A stretch of DNA of 64,000 nt from Nakamurella flavida. GTDB lineage: Bacteria > Actinomycetota > Actinomycetes > Mycobacteriales > Nakamurellaceae. Below, in pieces: positions 20,399 to 25,286 of the stretch (position 1 is its first letter; each line of letters begins with the position of its first letter). The DNA lies in assembly GCF_030811475.1 (NCBI RefSeq), contig NZ_JAUSQV010000001.1, forward strand, positions 930,001-994,000, in the 5' to 3' direction. Both the position numbers and the translations under genes were made by a program. The notes under the pieces were generated by a model. That model was not told where the DNA came from and made no database searches. It saw nothing but the letters and a program-made list of their open reading frames with translations.

Positions 20399-20632
20399 TC
20401 AGCGTTCGTCCACCCGCTGCAGCCGCAGCGCCAGCACCGGACAGGCGTTGGCCGCGGCACGGGCCCGGCGGATCAGCTCCGCCGGCACCGGGCCGCTCGG
20501 GAGCAGCGGGTACCCCCACTCGTCCAGGGTGATGCCCTCGCCGAACTCGTCGGCACACAGGCCGTGGGCGCGGCAGCGCAGAGGATCGACCTCCAGCCGC
20601 CGGCCGGCGACCGACGCTCCCCGGCTCACCAT
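20399..20632 (-). CDS. Ferredoxin, single [3Fe-4S]-type cluster
   Basis: 77 residues. Three ligand cysteines are visible: Cys20 and Cys26 in CRAHGLC and Cys64 in ACPV. This is the C-x5-C...C-P arrangement of small [3Fe-4S] ferredoxins such as those serving actinobacterial P450s. Here it is the last gene of an overlapping operon with a NuoF-like flavoprotein, whose stop it overlaps by 7 bases, so it probably exchanges electrons with that protein rather than with a P450. No membrane anchor. Confidence 0.88.
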   Translation of the reverse strand: MVSRGASVAGRRLEVDPLRCRAHGLCADEFGEGITLDEWGYPLLPSGPVPAELIRRARAAANACPVLALRLQRVDER

Positions 20633-21903
20633 CGCCGGTCCCCCGCACCCAGCCGGACCACCGGGCCGACCGCGGCGCACCGGCCGTGGGCGAGGTGGTC
20701 GTGCAGATGCCCGGCGAGCTCGGTGCGCAGGGCGTGCAGCGCGGAGGCGGCCAGGGCGACGACTCCGTCCGGGTGGCGGCAGGCCCCGCGGCCGGTGACC
20801 ACGGGGAGTCTCCGATCGAGGCGGACGGCCGCCGCCGCGTCGCCGTCGGTGAGCGCAGCCAGATCGGCGGCCAGGGCGGGGAGACCGAACATGCACGGCC
20901 CGCACTGGCCCGCACCCTCTCCCGCGAGATGGCCGACGAGGCGGGCCGTCTCGGTCAACACGCACCCGCCGGGGGGCAGCACGGTGATGGTGGCCGTGCC
21001 CCGGCCGGCGCCGACCGGGTGCAGCGCCGCTGACGTGAAGGGCCGGTCGGCGTGCCGGGCGAGGTCGAGCCAGCCGCCCGCGAGACCACCGACCAGCGCC
21101 CATCCCACTGCGGGCGCCCCCACCGCGGCCAGGACGGCACCGAGCGGGCTGCCGGCGGGGAGCTCGACGACCCCGGGACGGGCGACCGCGCCGGTCACCG
21201 TGATCAGCTCCGTGCCGGTCGACCCGGGTCGACCCAGCGCTCGGAAACCCACCGCGCCGATCCGGGCGAGGACGGCGACCTGGGCCAGGGTCTCGGCGTT
21301 GTCGAGCAGCGTCGGACGACCCCACACCCCCTGCTGCCACGGCCGCACCGCGCGTCCGGTGGGCCGGAAGTCCCCGGTGGTGATGCCGTGCACGAGCGCG
21401 GACGCCTCGGAGGCCACGTACCGCTCCGGCACGGGGACGATCTGCCAGCGCACACCCGAGGGCGGGCGGTCGGCCACAGCTGCAGAGAGGCACCGCTGCG
21501 GGCCGCCCTGGTCGCGCACTGCGACCAGGACCGTGTCGGTGCCGACGGCGTGGGCGGCCAGCTCGGCGCCGTCCAGGATCAGCTGGGGCGCGTGCCCGGC
21601 CAGCACGGCGTCCTTGGCCGACGTCGGGTCGCCCTCGACGGCGTTGACGACCACCACGGCCGGACCGCCGGTGGCCCGCACCTGTGCGGTGACGGCGGCG
21701 AGTTTGCGACCGGTGGGGAACCCGGCGCCGCCCCGCCCGGTCAGACCGGCCGCGACGACCTCGTCGATCAGCGCGGCGCCGGGCCGCGGCAGCGGCCCCC
21801 ACCGGACCAGGTGGTCGGACAGGTGCCGGCACGCCGGCCCGTCGAGCAGGCGGGCCGGGACGACGGGCCGGACGGGCGGTCCGGTGAGCAGACCGGCGCT
21901 CAT
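20626..21903 (-). CDS. NuoF-like NADH-dehydrogenase flavoprotein with altered Fe-S site
   Basis: 425 residues, the length of complex I NuoF. The FMN/NADH region is clear: TGRGGAGFPTGRKLA near 55, then VVVNAVEGDPTSAKDAVL. An SLBB-like part follows (VTGAVARPGVVELPAGSPLG), then a C-terminal Fe-S domain. That domain has CGPC and a later Cys in GRGACRHP. Normal NuoF has three cysteines in the first group (CGKCTPC); the first is alanine here. The usual CGEE before the SLBB part is ASEA. It overlaps the heme-protein gene by 4 bases. It probably takes electrons from NAD(P)H and passes them to the ferredoxin or the membrane partner, outside complex I. Confidence 0.82.
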   Translation of the reverse strand: MSAGLLTGPPVRPVVPARLLDGPACRHLSDHLVRWGPLPRPGAALIDEVVAAGLTGRGGAGFPTGRKLAAVTAQVRATGGPAVVVVNAVEGDPTSAKDAVLAGHAPQLILDGAELAAHAVGTDTVLVAVRDQGGPQRCLSAAVADRPPSGVRWQIVPVPERYVASEASALVHGITTGDFRPTGRAVRPWQQGVWGRPTLLDNAETLAQVAVLARIGAVGFRALGRPGSTGTELITVTGAVARPGVVELPAGSPLGAVLAAVGAPAVGWALVGGLAGGWLDLARHADRPFTSAALHPVGAGRGTATITVLPPGGCVLTETARLVGHLAGEGAGQCGPCMFGLPALAADLAALTDGDAAAAVRLDRRLPVVTGRGACRHPDGVVALAASALHALRTELAGHLHDHLAHGRCAAVGPVVRLGAGDRRW

Positions 21904-22562
21904 CGGGTGGCCCGCCCGGCTCCGAGGGGAACGACCGGGGTGGAAGTCACCGGGGTGGGATCGACGGGAACGACGGCGGGGCGCAGGTCGTGGCGGAGCC
22001 GGCCCTGCTCGCGGCGCACCGCGTCCGGATGACGGTCCGACCGCAGCCGCCACCGCCACAGGGCACCGACCACCGCGAGCACGCACACCCCGCTGACCGC
22101 GAGGGTCCACGGCCGGACCCCGTCGCCGCCGGCACTACCCAGCCCGTGGGCCACGGCGATGGGCCACATCGCGTACGCGGCGAGGTGCACACCGCGCCAG
22201 AGCCTCACGGGCAGGTGCCGCCGCAGCAGGCTGGTGATCGTGACGGCGAGCAGCAGGTCGACGGCCACCGCGCCCAGGCCCACCCAGAACGGGTCCCAGG
22301 CCGAACCGAACGGCAGGAAGACGTCGACCACGCCGAGTTCGACGTAGCCGTCGGCGATGGCCGAGACGATGTGCAGGGCCAGGAAGACCAGAGCGGAGAG
22401 GGAGATGCTGCGGTGCAGGCGCAGCACCCCGGCCCGGGGCAGGACGGCACTGCCGGCCCGGCCCGAGGTGGCGATGCCGAGCACGAGGACAGCGGTGAAC
22501 AGTACGAGGGCGACCACCCCTGCCGCCCGACTCAGGTACCACAGGGCGGACGAGTCGATCAT
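21900..22562 (-). CDS. Ferric-reductase-like transmembrane heme-b protein
   Basis: 220 residues with five or six membrane segments in the first 180 and a basic cytoplasmic tail. Paired histidines for b-type hemes appear in LRLHRSISLSALVFLALHI and in RGVHLAAYAMWPIAVAHGL, the four-histidine pattern of ferric reductase / MsrQ / NOX-type membrane domains. No FAD or NAD domain is fused; the NuoF-like and ferredoxin genes downstream could supply those roles. The start ATG overlaps the apbE stop, and the stop overlaps the NuoF-like start. Confidence 0.85.
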   Translation of the reverse strand: MIDSSALWYLSRAAGVVALVLFTAVLVLGIATSGRAGSAVLPRAGVLRLHRSISLSALVFLALHIVSAIADGYVELGVVDVFLPFGSAWDPFWVGLGAVAVDLLLAVTITSLLRRHLPVRLWRGVHLAAYAMWPIAVAHGLGSAGGDGVRPWTLAVSGVCVLAVVGALWRWRLRSDRHPDAVRREQGRLRHDLRPAVVPVDPTPVTSTPVVPLGAGRATR

Positions 22563-23593
22563 GCGGCGCACTCCTGGTCGGTGGGCCAGCCGGCCACGAT
22601 CCGGACGGGGTGGGCGTGCGGGGATCGGGCCGGCGCCGGGCCACTCTCGGCGGTGACCAGCCGGGCGGGCAGACCCAGACCGGCCAGCCACCCGGGTGCG
22701 GCCGGGCCCAGGATGATCGCGGCCGTCGCCGCGGCGTTCGCGTCGACCGCGGTGGCCGCGCACACCGACACGGTCCGCCAGCAGGGTGCCGGATTGCCGC
22801 CGCTGCGCGGGTCGACGAGGTGGTGGGCCTCACCCGCCGGTCCGGACCATCGTCGGGTGGTGGTCGACGACGTCGCCACCCCGCCACCGGTGATCGAGAT
22901 CGACGCGGGCGACGTCGCCGCCACCCGGTGGTCGTCGTGGACGGCGATGCGCCATCCGCCACGGGGCGCGGGGCCGTGGACGGCGATGTCCCCGCCGAGG
23001 TCGACCAGCACTCCTGCCCCGATCGCCCGGGCGATGCGTCGGGCGGCCCGGTCGGCGGCCAGCGCCTTCGCGGTGGCCCCGAGGTCCAGCCCCACCCCCG
23101 CGGGCATCAGCAGCTCCCGGGTGACCGGATCGTGCCGGATCCGCCAGTACCCCGGCGCGGGCAGGACGGGCTGGTGCCGACGCGACCCCGACCCCGGCTG
23201 GACCGGCAGTCCGGCCGGGGGGAGGTCTCCGATGTCCCGGTCGTACCCGAGGGCCACCAGCGGGCCGAGCACGGTGGGGTCGACGAGGCCGTCGGTCGCC
23301 CGGGCCACCCGCAGTGCGGTGGTCACCGCTGCGTTCAGCACCGGCGAGAGCACGACGGGCGAACCCGCGGCCCGGTTGACGGCCGTGATCTCGGAGTCGG
23401 GACGGAAGCGACTGCAGGCGATCTCGATGTCGTCCAGCTCGGCCCGGAGCTCACGGTGGGCCACACCCAGTGCCGCCGGGTCGGTGACCCGCACCGTGCC
23501 GGTGGTGGACCAGAGGTCGAAGGTCAGCCCCGCGGGCACGATGCGCGGGCGAGGGTCGTCCGGGCCGTGGGCGGACCCGTGGCGCCGGCTCAC
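22559..23593 (-). CDS. apbE: FAD:protein FMN transferase (ApbE family)
   Basis: 344 residues. ApbE enzymes attach FMN covalently to a threonine of a target protein. The fold landmarks are present: SRFRPDSEITAVNRAAG, GLDLGATAKALAADRA near 185, LVDLGGDIAVHGPAP, HHLVDPRSGG, and AVDANAAATAAIILG with the metal-binding Asp. No signal peptide or lipobox is seen before the domain, although many ApbE proteins are exported; a start further upstream would overlap the preceding gene. The GTG start overlaps that gene's stop. The flavinylated target in this locus is not obvious, because no FMN-binding domain protein is encoded beside it. Confidence 0.88.
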   Translation of the reverse strand: MSRRHGSAHGPDDPRPRIVPAGLTFDLWSTTGTVRVTDPAALGVAHRELRAELDDIEIACSRFRPDSEITAVNRAAGSPVVLSPVLNAAVTTALRVARATDGLVDPTVLGPLVALGYDRDIGDLPPAGLPVQPGSGSRRHQPVLPAPGYWRIRHDPVTRELLMPAGVGLDLGATAKALAADRAARRIARAIGAGVLVDLGGDIAVHGPAPRGGWRIAVHDDHRVAATSPASISITGGGVATSSTTTRRWSGPAGEAHHLVDPRSGGNPAPCWRTVSVCAATAVDANAAATAAIILGPAAPGWLAGLGLPARLVTAESGPAPARSPHAHPVRIVAGWPTDQECAA

Positions 23594-23919
23594 GATCCCC
23601 CCGTCCCCGCATCGGCCCGACCGGACGTCACACCGGGTCGCCGGGTCGGCGCCTGCGACGATCCGGTCGTCCCGGGAGCGACCGGCTGGGTGATGCCCGG
23701 CTGCGCGCTCCCGGTCGTGGCGGACCCCGAGGACGCGTCCGGCGCCGTGGTGCCCTGCGGGGTGCTCGCCGCGGCATCGGCGCCCAGGGCGACGGCCAGC
23801 GCCCCCACACCGATCCCCGCGGCGGCGACGGTGGCGGTGGTGATGACCCGCACCCGGCGCAGCAGCGCGGACCGCGGTGGTCGTCCGCTGGGTGGGACGG
23901 GACCGGATGCGTTCGACAT
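23590..23919 (-). CDS. Short single-pass membrane protein with Ser/Thr/Gly/Pro-rich tail
   Basis: 109 residues: a basic proline-rich N-terminus, one membrane segment at about 25-48, and an external tail rich in Ser, Thr, Gly, Ala and Pro. It is the first gene of the apbE/heme/NuoF-like/ferredoxin operon, where related loci that I recall carry an FMN-binding domain protein with a DxxSGAT flavinylation site. Here the tail has DASSGSATT at 61-69, one residue longer than that motif between Gly and Ala. Whether Thr68 can be flavinylated is speculative. The ATG at 23919 has no strong ribosome site; a GTG at 23967 is the alternative. Confidence 0.65.
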   Translation of the reverse strand: MSNASGPVPPSGRPPRSALLRRVRVITTATVAAAGIGVGALAVALGADAAASTPQGTTAPDASSGSATTGSAQPGITQPVAPGTTGSSQAPTRRPGVTSGRADAGTGGS

Positions 23920-24038
23920 GACCGAAGATTCGGCCCGGGAGCTGTGCGCCCGCTGTGCCGTGGCCACCGGTCAGCTGGGAGCGCGGTCGGCGCGGCGGGT
24001 CTATGCACGGCCCGCCCCCATTGGCCAAGATCACTGCC

Positions 24039-25286
24039 ATGAGCACCTCGCGGCGTGACTCCACGACCCATCTCATCGGGCTGCTGCTCGGCACCGAGAA
24101 CGACTGGCCGCGGGCCTTCGAGACCCTGGTCCGCAGGGTCGGGGCGATCCCGCACGCCGGCCGGGAGCACCACATCGACACCGAGCGCATCACCATCGAG
24201 CCGTTCGACCTGCGGTCGCCGGTGCGGTACGACGTGGTGATCGACCGCTTGGCCTGGTGGTACTTCCATCCACGGGAATGGCTGAAGAAGGCCGCCCTGG
24301 TGAACGACACCTACCTGCTGAACAACCCGTTCACCTTCCAGGCGATGGAGAAGCACTCCGCGTACTGCGCGATGATCCGGCTGGGTTTCGACATCCCGGA
24401 CACGGTGCTGGTGCCGTTCAAGAACCCGGTGGATCACGAGAAGTGGGCGTACACCGCGGAGACCTACAACCTGCCCTTCGATCTGGACGAGGTGGCGGCA
24501 CGCGTCGGGTTCCCGATGTACATGAAGCCGTTCGACGGTGGTGCCTGGCGCGGGGTCTCGCGCATCGACGGGCCCGCCGAGTTGCATCGGGCGTACGACG
24601 AGTCGGGGCAGATGCTCATGCACCTGCAGGGGGCGGTGTCCGAGTTCGACTCGTTCGCCCGGTCGCTGACCATCGGCCCGGAGACCAAGATCATGCGGTT
24701 CCGCCCGGAGCTGCCCATGCACGACCGGTACGAGGTGGCCCACCATTTCCTGCCGCCCGAGGCGGGCATGGAGATCCTCACCCTGTCCCGCACCATCAAT
24801 GCGTTCTTCCGGTGGGAGTTCAATTCCTGCGAGGCCCTGGTCACCGGGACGCGGGTGCAGCCCATCGACTACGCCAACGCCTGCCCGGACGTCTCGATCA
24901 CCTCGCTGCACTACTACTTCCCGTGGGCGATCACCCAGCTGGTGTCCTGGTCGGTGTTCTGTGCGGTGTCCGGCCGGCGGCAGCGGGTGGACACCACCAC
25001 GCGGGACTGGTTCGACGTCGCCGACGACCCGGACCTGAGCTGGGCCGAGAAGCTCGGCCGGTACGCGGCGATGTCGGACGAGTACTTCCAGACCGCGGAG
25101 TACCAGGAGTTCTGCGCGACGTCGTTGGCGTCGCTAACGGAGATCGTCCGGGACTGGATCGCCTCGTCGGACTTCGACGCCCTGCTGGTCGAGACCGTCC
25201 GCGCCACTTACCCGCCGGCGGAGCACGAGCGCTTCCTGGCGCACTTCCGCGGCCTGCTCGGCATGTGGGTGGACGACCAGCACTGA
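24039..25286 (+). CDS. ATP-grasp-like protein of unknown function
   Basis: About 415 residues, soluble. It has the layout of an uncharacterised ATP-grasp family: GLLLGTENDWPRAF at the start, YDVVIDRLAWWYFHPREWLKK, NNPFTFQAMEKHSAY, then the ATP-grasp core GFPMYMKPFDGGAWRGVSRI near 160-180, HLQGAVSEFDSFARSLTIG, and VQPIDYANACPDVSI in the metal region. Family members ligate or phosphorylate small carboxylates, but this subfamily's reaction is unknown to me. The ATG at 24039 lacks a clear ribosome site, and an ATG at 24003 would add 12 residues. It is divergent from the flavin/heme operon. Confidence 0.75.
   Translation: MSTSRRDSTTHLIGLLLGTENDWPRAFETLVRRVGAIPHAGREHHIDTERITIEPFDLRSPVRYDVVIDRLAWWYFHPREWLKKAALVNDTYLLNNPFTFQAMEKHSAYCAMIRLGFDIPDTVLVPFKNPVDHEKWAYTAETYNLPFDLDEVAARVGFPMYMKPFDGGAWRGVSRIDGPAELHRAYDESGQMLMHLQGAVSEFDSFARSLTIGPETKIMRFRPELPMHDRYEVAHHFLPPEAGMEILTLSRTINAFFRWEFNSCEALVTGTRVQPIDYANACPDVSITSLHYYFPWAITQLVSWSVFCAVSGRRQRVDTTTRDWFDVADDPDLSWAEKLGRYAAMSDEYFQTAEYQEFCATSLASLTEIVRDWIASSDFDALLVETVRATYPPAEHERFLAHFRGLLGMWVDDQH

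Follow-up and report, generated by a model that had tools for sequence, protein, structure and literature searches.

The closest described systems to the operon reported here are the MsrQ-like flavinylation clusters, of which Meheust et al. described 1797 in 2021 (PMC8238504). According to that study, the clusters are widely conserved among Actinobacteria, and 31 of the 1797 include a NuoF-like protein. In the same report, reduced nicotinamide adenine dinucleotide (phosphate) (NAD(P)H) was inferred as the electron donor for at least a subset of these clusters. In this study, we analyzed a stretch of 64,000 nucleotides from Nakamurella flavida (contig NZ_JAUSQV010000001.1, positions 930,001 to 994,000; hereafter the window), which contains a five-gene operon for a short one-helix protein, the flavin mononucleotide (FMN) transferase ApbE, a heme-b membrane protein, a NuoF-like dehydrogenase subunit and a small ferredoxin. 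Our comparison with relatives indicates that the short protein is very probably the substrate of ApbE, with covalent FMN predicted on its last serine residue. The operon as a whole probably encodes a transmembrane electron-transfer chain whose external carrier is this C-terminally flavinylated tail. Its features, in coordinates of the window, are as follows.

23919-20399, minus strand: operon of five genes, consecutive genes overlapping stop to start
23590..23919, minus strand: short one-helix protein, 109 residues, proposed ApbE substrate from its sequence; no Pfam family
23776..23874, minus strand: predicted helix of the short protein, residues 16-48 with hydrophobic core 31-47 (AlphaFold2, hydrophobicity)
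23593..23613, minus strand: C-terminal heptapeptide DAGTGGS of the short protein, proposed site of flavinylation, with the last Ser (codon 23595-23593) as the predicted FMN attachment residue
22559..23593, minus strand: ApbE, flavin adenine dinucleotide (FAD):protein FMN transferase, 344 residues (PF02424, E 4.4e-45)
21900..22562, minus strand: heme-b membrane protein, Ferric-reductase/MsrQ-like, 220 residues (Pfam Ferric_reduct, PF01794, E 9e-8)
20626..21903, minus strand: NuoF-like FMN/iron–sulfur NAD(P)H dehydrogenase subunit, 425 residues (PF01512, PF10531, PF10589)
20399..20632, minus strand: small ferredoxin with C-x5-C...CP, 77 residues (76 if GTG at 20629 is the start; Fer4_15, PF13459, E 4.7e-10)

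The apbE start codon, GTG, overlaps the stop codon of the short-protein gene, ATGA overlaps join ApbE to the heme protein and the heme protein to the NuoF-like protein, and the ferredoxin gene starts within the end of the NuoF-like gene. A preliminary description of this DNA had already read the five genes as overlapping end to end, which the coordinates 23919-20399 bear out. Its naming of ApbE, a heme-b protein, a NuoF-like protein and a ferredoxin agrees with the Pfam matches, and the heme histidine pairs and cofactor residues that it pointed to are conserved in aligned relatives. The short membrane protein that it listed is likewise present, but its motif-bearing C-terminus had gone unnoticed, as had the missing FMN_bind gene.

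The short protein consists of a basic stretch (LLRRVR), one hydrophobic helix and a disordered tail of Ser, Thr, Ala, Pro and Gly. AlphaFold2 with single-sequence input places the helix at residues 16-48 and leaves the tail unstructured (predicted local distance difference test score about 50); the helix is predicted to be a signal anchor or a signal peptide. No Pfam family matches the protein up to an E value of 1, and a homology search returned 363 candidates, none at E 0.01, an outcome expected because the tail is of low complexity. The chain ends in DAGTGGS. The published ApbE motif, D-x-x-[S/T]-G-A-[S/T], spans seven residues, the last of which bears FMN, and flavinylation of a seven-residue C-terminal tag is efficient in laboratory experiments (PMC12052999). 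The window heptapeptide shares with this motif Asp at –6, Thr at –3, Gly at –2 and Ser at 0.

Two samples of relatives were compared. The first comprised 80 NuoF-like loci, hand-picked as 40 from each of two listings, among the matches listed, with a preference for high scores and many families; the second comprised the best 80 of 95 loci, returned automatically by the search and including Nocardia, Terrabacter, Pseudonocardia and Leifsonia among others. The samples share some genomes (L099/L162, L111/L169) and the second contains near-identical Nocardia, so that the counts are not independent events. Profiles built from first-sample matches detected ApbE in 54, the heme protein in 70 and the ferredoxin in 78 of the 80 first-sample loci, and in 61, 72 and 80 of the 80 second-sample loci, respectively. 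The genes thus co-occur more than by chance, and the check proposed in the preliminary description, whether they occur together elsewhere in actinobacteria, is answered by a set that recurs across Actinomycetota.

An open reading frame with the architecture of the short protein lies directly upstream of ApbE in 42 of 54 (first sample) and 48 of 61 (second sample) ApbE-bearing loci. Among these candidates, 37 of 42 and 45 of 48 end in [ST]x[GA][ST], where shuffled tails predict 1.87 and 2.04, respectively. This rule was fixed after the first-sample loci had been inspected, so the first count is not blind, and it was left unchanged for the second sample. Elsewhere in the first-sample loci, the motif ends 9 of 51 frames of the same architecture (wrong frames included), and these nine seem to belong to the same family; the corresponding figure in the second sample is 12 of 46. 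For all open segments of 100 residues or more in the first sample, it is 80 of 4263. Chance or composition as the source of the motif is rejected by the tail shuffles.

The constraint is confined to the end of the chain. The tails of relatives contain 40% Ser and Thr, and only 17 of 2579 residues are aromatic or Cys; they are unalignable outside the last seven residues. Among 83 distinct C-terminal 12-mers, the window included, 76 match the motif and 81 end in Ser or Thr. Measured against the tail background, each of positions –11 to –7 carries about 0.4 bit of information; the value rises to 2.34 bits at –6 and is 0.70 at –5, 0.67 at –4, 1.24 at –3, 1.33 at –2, 2.20 at –1 and 1.98 at 0. The onset of constraint at –6 coincides with the register of the published seven-residue motif.

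The window ApbE resembles solved ApbE structures (best E 5.7e-18). Beside the PF02424 domain it carries the His and Asp residues of an FMN transferase active site, which are conserved among 52 aligned rows (H257 in 48, H258 in 51, D261 in 49 and D202 in 52). It is the single ApbE match in the genome, searched as one contig of 4.32 Mb, in which FMN_bind, NqrB/RnfD, DUF2271, DUF3570 and Flavodoxin_4 are all unmatched, FMN_red-type and unknown substrates not having been searched. The nearest named proteins are those of Nakamurella. Across 17 genomes of the genus, ApbE occurs in 14 and FMN_bind in 10. Four genomes have ApbE and no FMN_bind: three, including that of the window (with G073 and G101), carry the peptide upstream of ApbE, and the fourth (G080) has a divergent FMN_bind-like gene. 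Two further genomes (G066, G115) lack ApbE and also lack FMN_bind and the cluster.

The two kinds of substrate appear to occupy the same place. In L035 and L064, a Pfam FMN_bind gene stands directly before apbE, at the position of the peptide gene, and in the ApbE tree the L035 sequence falls inside a set of peptide-type ApbEs from the genus of the window. The L035 FMN_bind protein has Gln at –6, whereas the other 10 distinct FMN_bind proteins inspected have Asp. Judged from these sequences, L035 looks like a case in which the substrate was swapped under one ApbE. In a quick ApbE tree of 127 rows, with Shimodaira–Hasegawa-like approximate likelihood ratio support only and no bootstrap, all 83 peptide-type rows fall within one group of 111 rows (support 90, or 97 for 110 of the rows), and 9 of 10 FMN_bind-type rows together with all four rows beside a divergent FMN_bind-like gene fall outside it. 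The group also contains 27 rows labelled 'other', as no rule-matching motif lies beside them. In L124, L126, L127 and L128, ApbE is preceded by a divergent FMN_bind-like protein that shares the string GSSLTSGGF and is unlisted by the Pfam FMN_bind search.

The remaining three genes supply the redox components. The heme protein matches PF01794 only and has no C-terminal FAD/NAD(P)H domain, and its two histidine pairs, H50/H64 and H126/H139, are each conserved in 68 of 68 rows. It has no sequence match among solved structures up to E 1 and no Foldseek match at E 0.001; the nearest folds are SpNOX, NOX5 and STEAP. With this protein as query, a search of the genome contigs returned no relative while 918 were found elsewhere, which marks a limit of the patterns used. 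The NuoF-like protein contains Complex1_51K (E 2e-27), SLBB and NADH_4Fe-4S domains and aligns to Thermus Nqo1 (2fug_1, E 8.5e-34). By comparison with complex I NuoF, its score of 145.9 is far below the NCBIfam NuoF cut-off of 558.65, and the ligand pattern CxxCxxC...C reads AxxCxxC...C. Ala replaces the first cluster cysteine of NuoF at position 331 (81 of 81 rows), C334, C337 and C375 are kept in 81 of 81, and C314, the relocated cluster cysteine, in 80 of 81. This C314/A331 signature separates the NuoF-like protein from complex I NuoF.

The three cysteines of the ferredoxin are each conserved in 72 of 72 rows, and its cluster is probably [3Fe-4S]. In 14 of 78 first-sample loci, NuoF and ferredoxin matches lie within one open segment, and the protein P0194 carries both domains; the ferredoxin is therefore probably part of the dehydrogenase. 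A heme protein/NuoF fusion, P0096, considered as evidence of partnership, was discarded, as it looks frameshifted. In five loci (L047, L052, L054, L055 and L059), NuoF–ferredoxin fusions adjoin a long heme protein, with no ApbE match in the locus. The heme proteins of these loci have a similar C-terminal end, YWA.LRGEA or close to it in several, and the sets are seemingly a flavinylation-free version.

Taken together, the following mechanism may be proposed for the operon. Cytosolic ApbE would transfer FMN from FAD onto the last Ser of DAGTGGS, after which the tail would be exported and the short protein kept anchored by its N-terminal helix. NADH, a likely donor, would reduce the FMN and iron–sulfur centers of the NuoF-like protein and the ferredoxin, and the two b hemes would pass the electrons across the membrane. 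The tethered FMN, once reduced, would swing on its leash of about 60 residues and deliver the electrons to an external acceptor, so that the tethered peptide would play the part that an FMN_bind domain has in the MsrQ-like systems already described.

Several observations weigh against the short protein as an exported ApbE substrate. At –1, the window motif has Gly where the published motif has Ala; among the 83 distinct tails, this residue is Gly in 65 and Ala in 12. At –6, relatives mostly have His or Gln and not Asp (31 H, 20 Q and 6 D of 83); in one cited case, the change of this Asp to Ala had minor effects only (PMC12052999). Five of the 42 first-sample candidates (L045, L048, L065, L090 and L103) lack the motif, and three of the 48 in the second sample end in S-H-S-S, T-H-T-S or T-H-S-S. 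Furthermore, 12 of 54 first-sample ApbE loci have no candidate under the fixed rule; inspection of these found seven motif-ended tails (L043, L083, L092, L107, L115, L116, and L106 with one extra residue), an FMN_bind gene in L035 and L064, and nothing visible in L046, L088 and L091. No candidate is present in 13 of 61 second-sample ApbE loci either, seven of which have a motif-ended upstream frame that does not fit the architecture rule; several of these frames have Lys-rich tails with the ending TKTKGS or TKGS. In one genome of the genus (G129, assembly 88% complete), the peptide, heme protein, NuoF-like protein and ferredoxin are present and ApbE was not found, which is either counter-evidence or an assembly gap. 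In addition, ApbE lacks an export signal, so that modification would need to occur before export, and the twin-arginine stretch ahead of the helix of the short protein (34 of 37) is not a canonical motif for twin-arginine translocation (Tat).

Other explanations of the operon were considered in the light of these data. It might be an ordinary MsrQ-like system in which ApbE modifies a flavoprotein encoded elsewhere and the short protein serves as an assembly or anchoring factor, since MsrQ-like clusters with ApbE and FMN_bind are in print, some with the NuoF-like protein, and FMN_bind is found in more than half of the genus genomes; we regard this as improbable, as the five searched domains are unmatched in the window genome (the search leaving aside FMN_red-type and unknown substrates) and the end of the tail is conserved whereas its remainder is not. 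Alternatively, the tail end might be conserved as a ribosome site, an apbE start, or a protease or cell-wall processing signal, its likeness to the ApbE motif being accidental. The short gene does overlap the apbE start in the window, a TGA stop in 100 of 103 motif-ended copies and a last codon TCG or TCA in 70 of 103 suit such an overlap, and the tails are rich in Ser and Gly. The overlap, however, can fix only one base, the last of the last codon; a ribosome-site-like string is found in only 4 of 103 copies, –6 is constrained too, and shuffles give about 2. The motif codons vary, with all four Gly codons at –1 and six Ser codons at 0, and the motif is kept in copies that have no apbE after them, which lie downstream of the ferredoxin gene in L045 and L092 (two copies in the latter) and on the opposite strand in L035 and L151. 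This codon variety and these copies led us to reject overlap with a ribosome site or start codon as the sole cause of the conserved end, and the accidental likeness is quite improbable. That the heme protein is a true MsrQ serving a methionine sulfoxide reductase, with the other genes incidental, finds a basis in the homology from which the published MsrQ-like family was named; yet no such reductase is among the five genes, a check that did not extend to MsrP in the rest of the genome, and the co-occurrence of ApbE, NuoF and ferredoxin is widespread, which makes this explanation extremely improbable.

A further possibility accepts flavinylation of the short protein but leaves the tail inside, with a cytosolic flavin between the NuoF-like and heme proteins. 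FAD is cytosolic, and a crude hydrophobicity test, used in place of a signal-peptide program, found no hydrophobic export segment in any of 54 ApbE relatives or in the window ApbE (N-terminal hydrophobicity at most 0.75). By contrast, the tail is predicted to lie outside because basic residues precede the helix, the twin arginines among them, and Lys and Arg average 4% of the tails, although some second-sample tails are Lys-rich. In L064, moreover, the FMN_bind protein has a hydrophobic N-terminus and the neighboring ApbE lacks one, so the same export riddle applies to folded substrates. We consider a cytosolic tail unlikely and, from these sequence features, a location outside the cell membrane probable. 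The twin-arginine stretch suggests, but does not show, export by Tat; a literature search for small unstructured proteins exported by Tat, as a precedent, returned nothing. Either flavinylation is cytosolic and followed by export, or the tail remains inside.

The tail proteins vary among loci. In L036, two consecutive motif-ended tail proteins (HAQSGGS and HASSGGS) precede a single ApbE, which would give more than one carrier per chain. L121 has a tail with a long proline run ending in HTKTGAS-GA and L115 a tail ending in HTKTGAS; their ApbEs fall outside the main peptide-type group, and these tails are possibly a rigid variant of the leash. In L045 and L048, a long membrane protein, glycosyltransferase-like by appearance, replaces the tail protein before apbE, and in L045 the tail protein is located downstream of the ferredoxin instead. 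A phylum-level survey of 15 loci under looser thresholds found motif-ended tails in six, a different ending with two cysteines in four, and no tail in five, two of which were fetched from a contig end. In the four two-cysteine cases (L227, L231, L234 and L235, same phylum, other class), the tail ends in a C-x9-C loop with a PSG turn and a single residue after the loop, which may be a second kind of carrier end.

With respect to the acceptor, Fe(III), reduced ahead of Fe(II) uptake, is a tentative candidate. In L033 and L034, both of the window's genus, the next gene after the ferredoxin on its strand is VIT1-like, and such genes occur in 6 of the 160 loci of a neighbor survey, in which a crude GC-based gene caller was used and one member per family was checked in Pfam; a VIT1-like association has been read as a hint of assimilatory iron reduction (PMC8238504). 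A histidine kinase and a response regulator are both present in 19 of 160 loci; neither was seen beside the window operon, where the translations were read with no profile search. A recurring unannotated family of membrane-protein-like frames lies near the cluster in L036, L146, L152, L176 and L178, the L152 member having no Pfam match. The operon is flanked by the following genes.

20311-19061, minus strand: major facilitator superfamily transporter gene, next downstream on the operon strand (Pfam)
23955-25286, plus strand: ATP-grasp-like gene by the appearance of its translation, divergent and directly upstream of the operon

No other Nuo subunit was found by Pfam among the five genes or in the transporter gene behind them; the further flanks were read as translations.

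The short protein is likely to represent a natural minimal carrier, a disordered chain anchored in the membrane that bears one covalent FMN on its final residue. Carriers of this type would be widespread in Actinomycetota, would have a branch of cytosolic ApbE dedicated to them and could be exchanged for the folded FMN_bind domain. If so, a carrier could take part in flavin electron transfer without a flavin-binding fold of its own. A disordered tether flavinylated at its C-terminus would then define a class of redox proteins that is new and undetectable by domain searches, and it would explain why many actinobacteria have apbE genes with no known substrate. It would also raise the question of how a presumably exported tail is loaded by an ApbE without an export signal. 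Our searches of the open-licence literature, supplements excluded, yielded no report of an ApbE substrate like this one, either C-terminal or disordered, which is not proof of absence.

Our comparison with known systems places the operon close to the MsrQ-like clusters, with which it shares a PF01794 heme protein encoded near ApbE. The chain type is thus already in print, and the preliminary description of a chain unlike any described system is not supported, given the MsrQ-like clusters with a NuoF-like protein (PMC8238504); the peptide as substrate was not found in the literature consulted. Those clusters typically, though not necessarily, hold an FMN_bind gene, of which the window genome has none. 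Their rule asks for a signal peptide or lipid site on the target gene, whereas FMN_bind, DUF2271 and DUF3570 are absent here and the ApbE N-terminus is not hydrophobic; peptide-type clusters probably escape this rule. The heme protein has the two heme histidine pairs of the NOX/FRE/STEAP superfamily in a NOX-like helical membrane domain, but those proteins carry a C-terminal FAD/NAD(P)H domain, while the dehydrogenase here is a separate NuoF-like protein. The latter shares the FMN-binding 51K, SLBB and iron–sulfur domains of the complex I NuoF/NfnB/HydB 51-kDa family, whose solved structures it matches, and differs from complex I in having no NuoE or NuoG among the five genes and its cluster cysteine at 314, not 331. 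The ApbE substrates FMN_bind, NqrB/RnfD, DUF2271, Flavodoxin_4 and FMN_red have the same type of Ser/Thr-ended motif (PMC11334425, PMC12052999), and a flavinylation site on an unstructured C-terminal extension has been predicted for the FMN_red protein of L. lactis (PMC11334425, PMC12052999). As far as these sources describe them, the known substrates are folded domains, whereas the window peptide has no fold outside its helix and bears the motif at the very end of the chain. In this regard, it resembles the laboratory flavin-tag, an engineered C-terminal seven-residue motif (PMC12052999), of which the window version appears to be a natural counterpart, so that the C-terminal flavin tag would have been used in nature before protein engineers adopted it.

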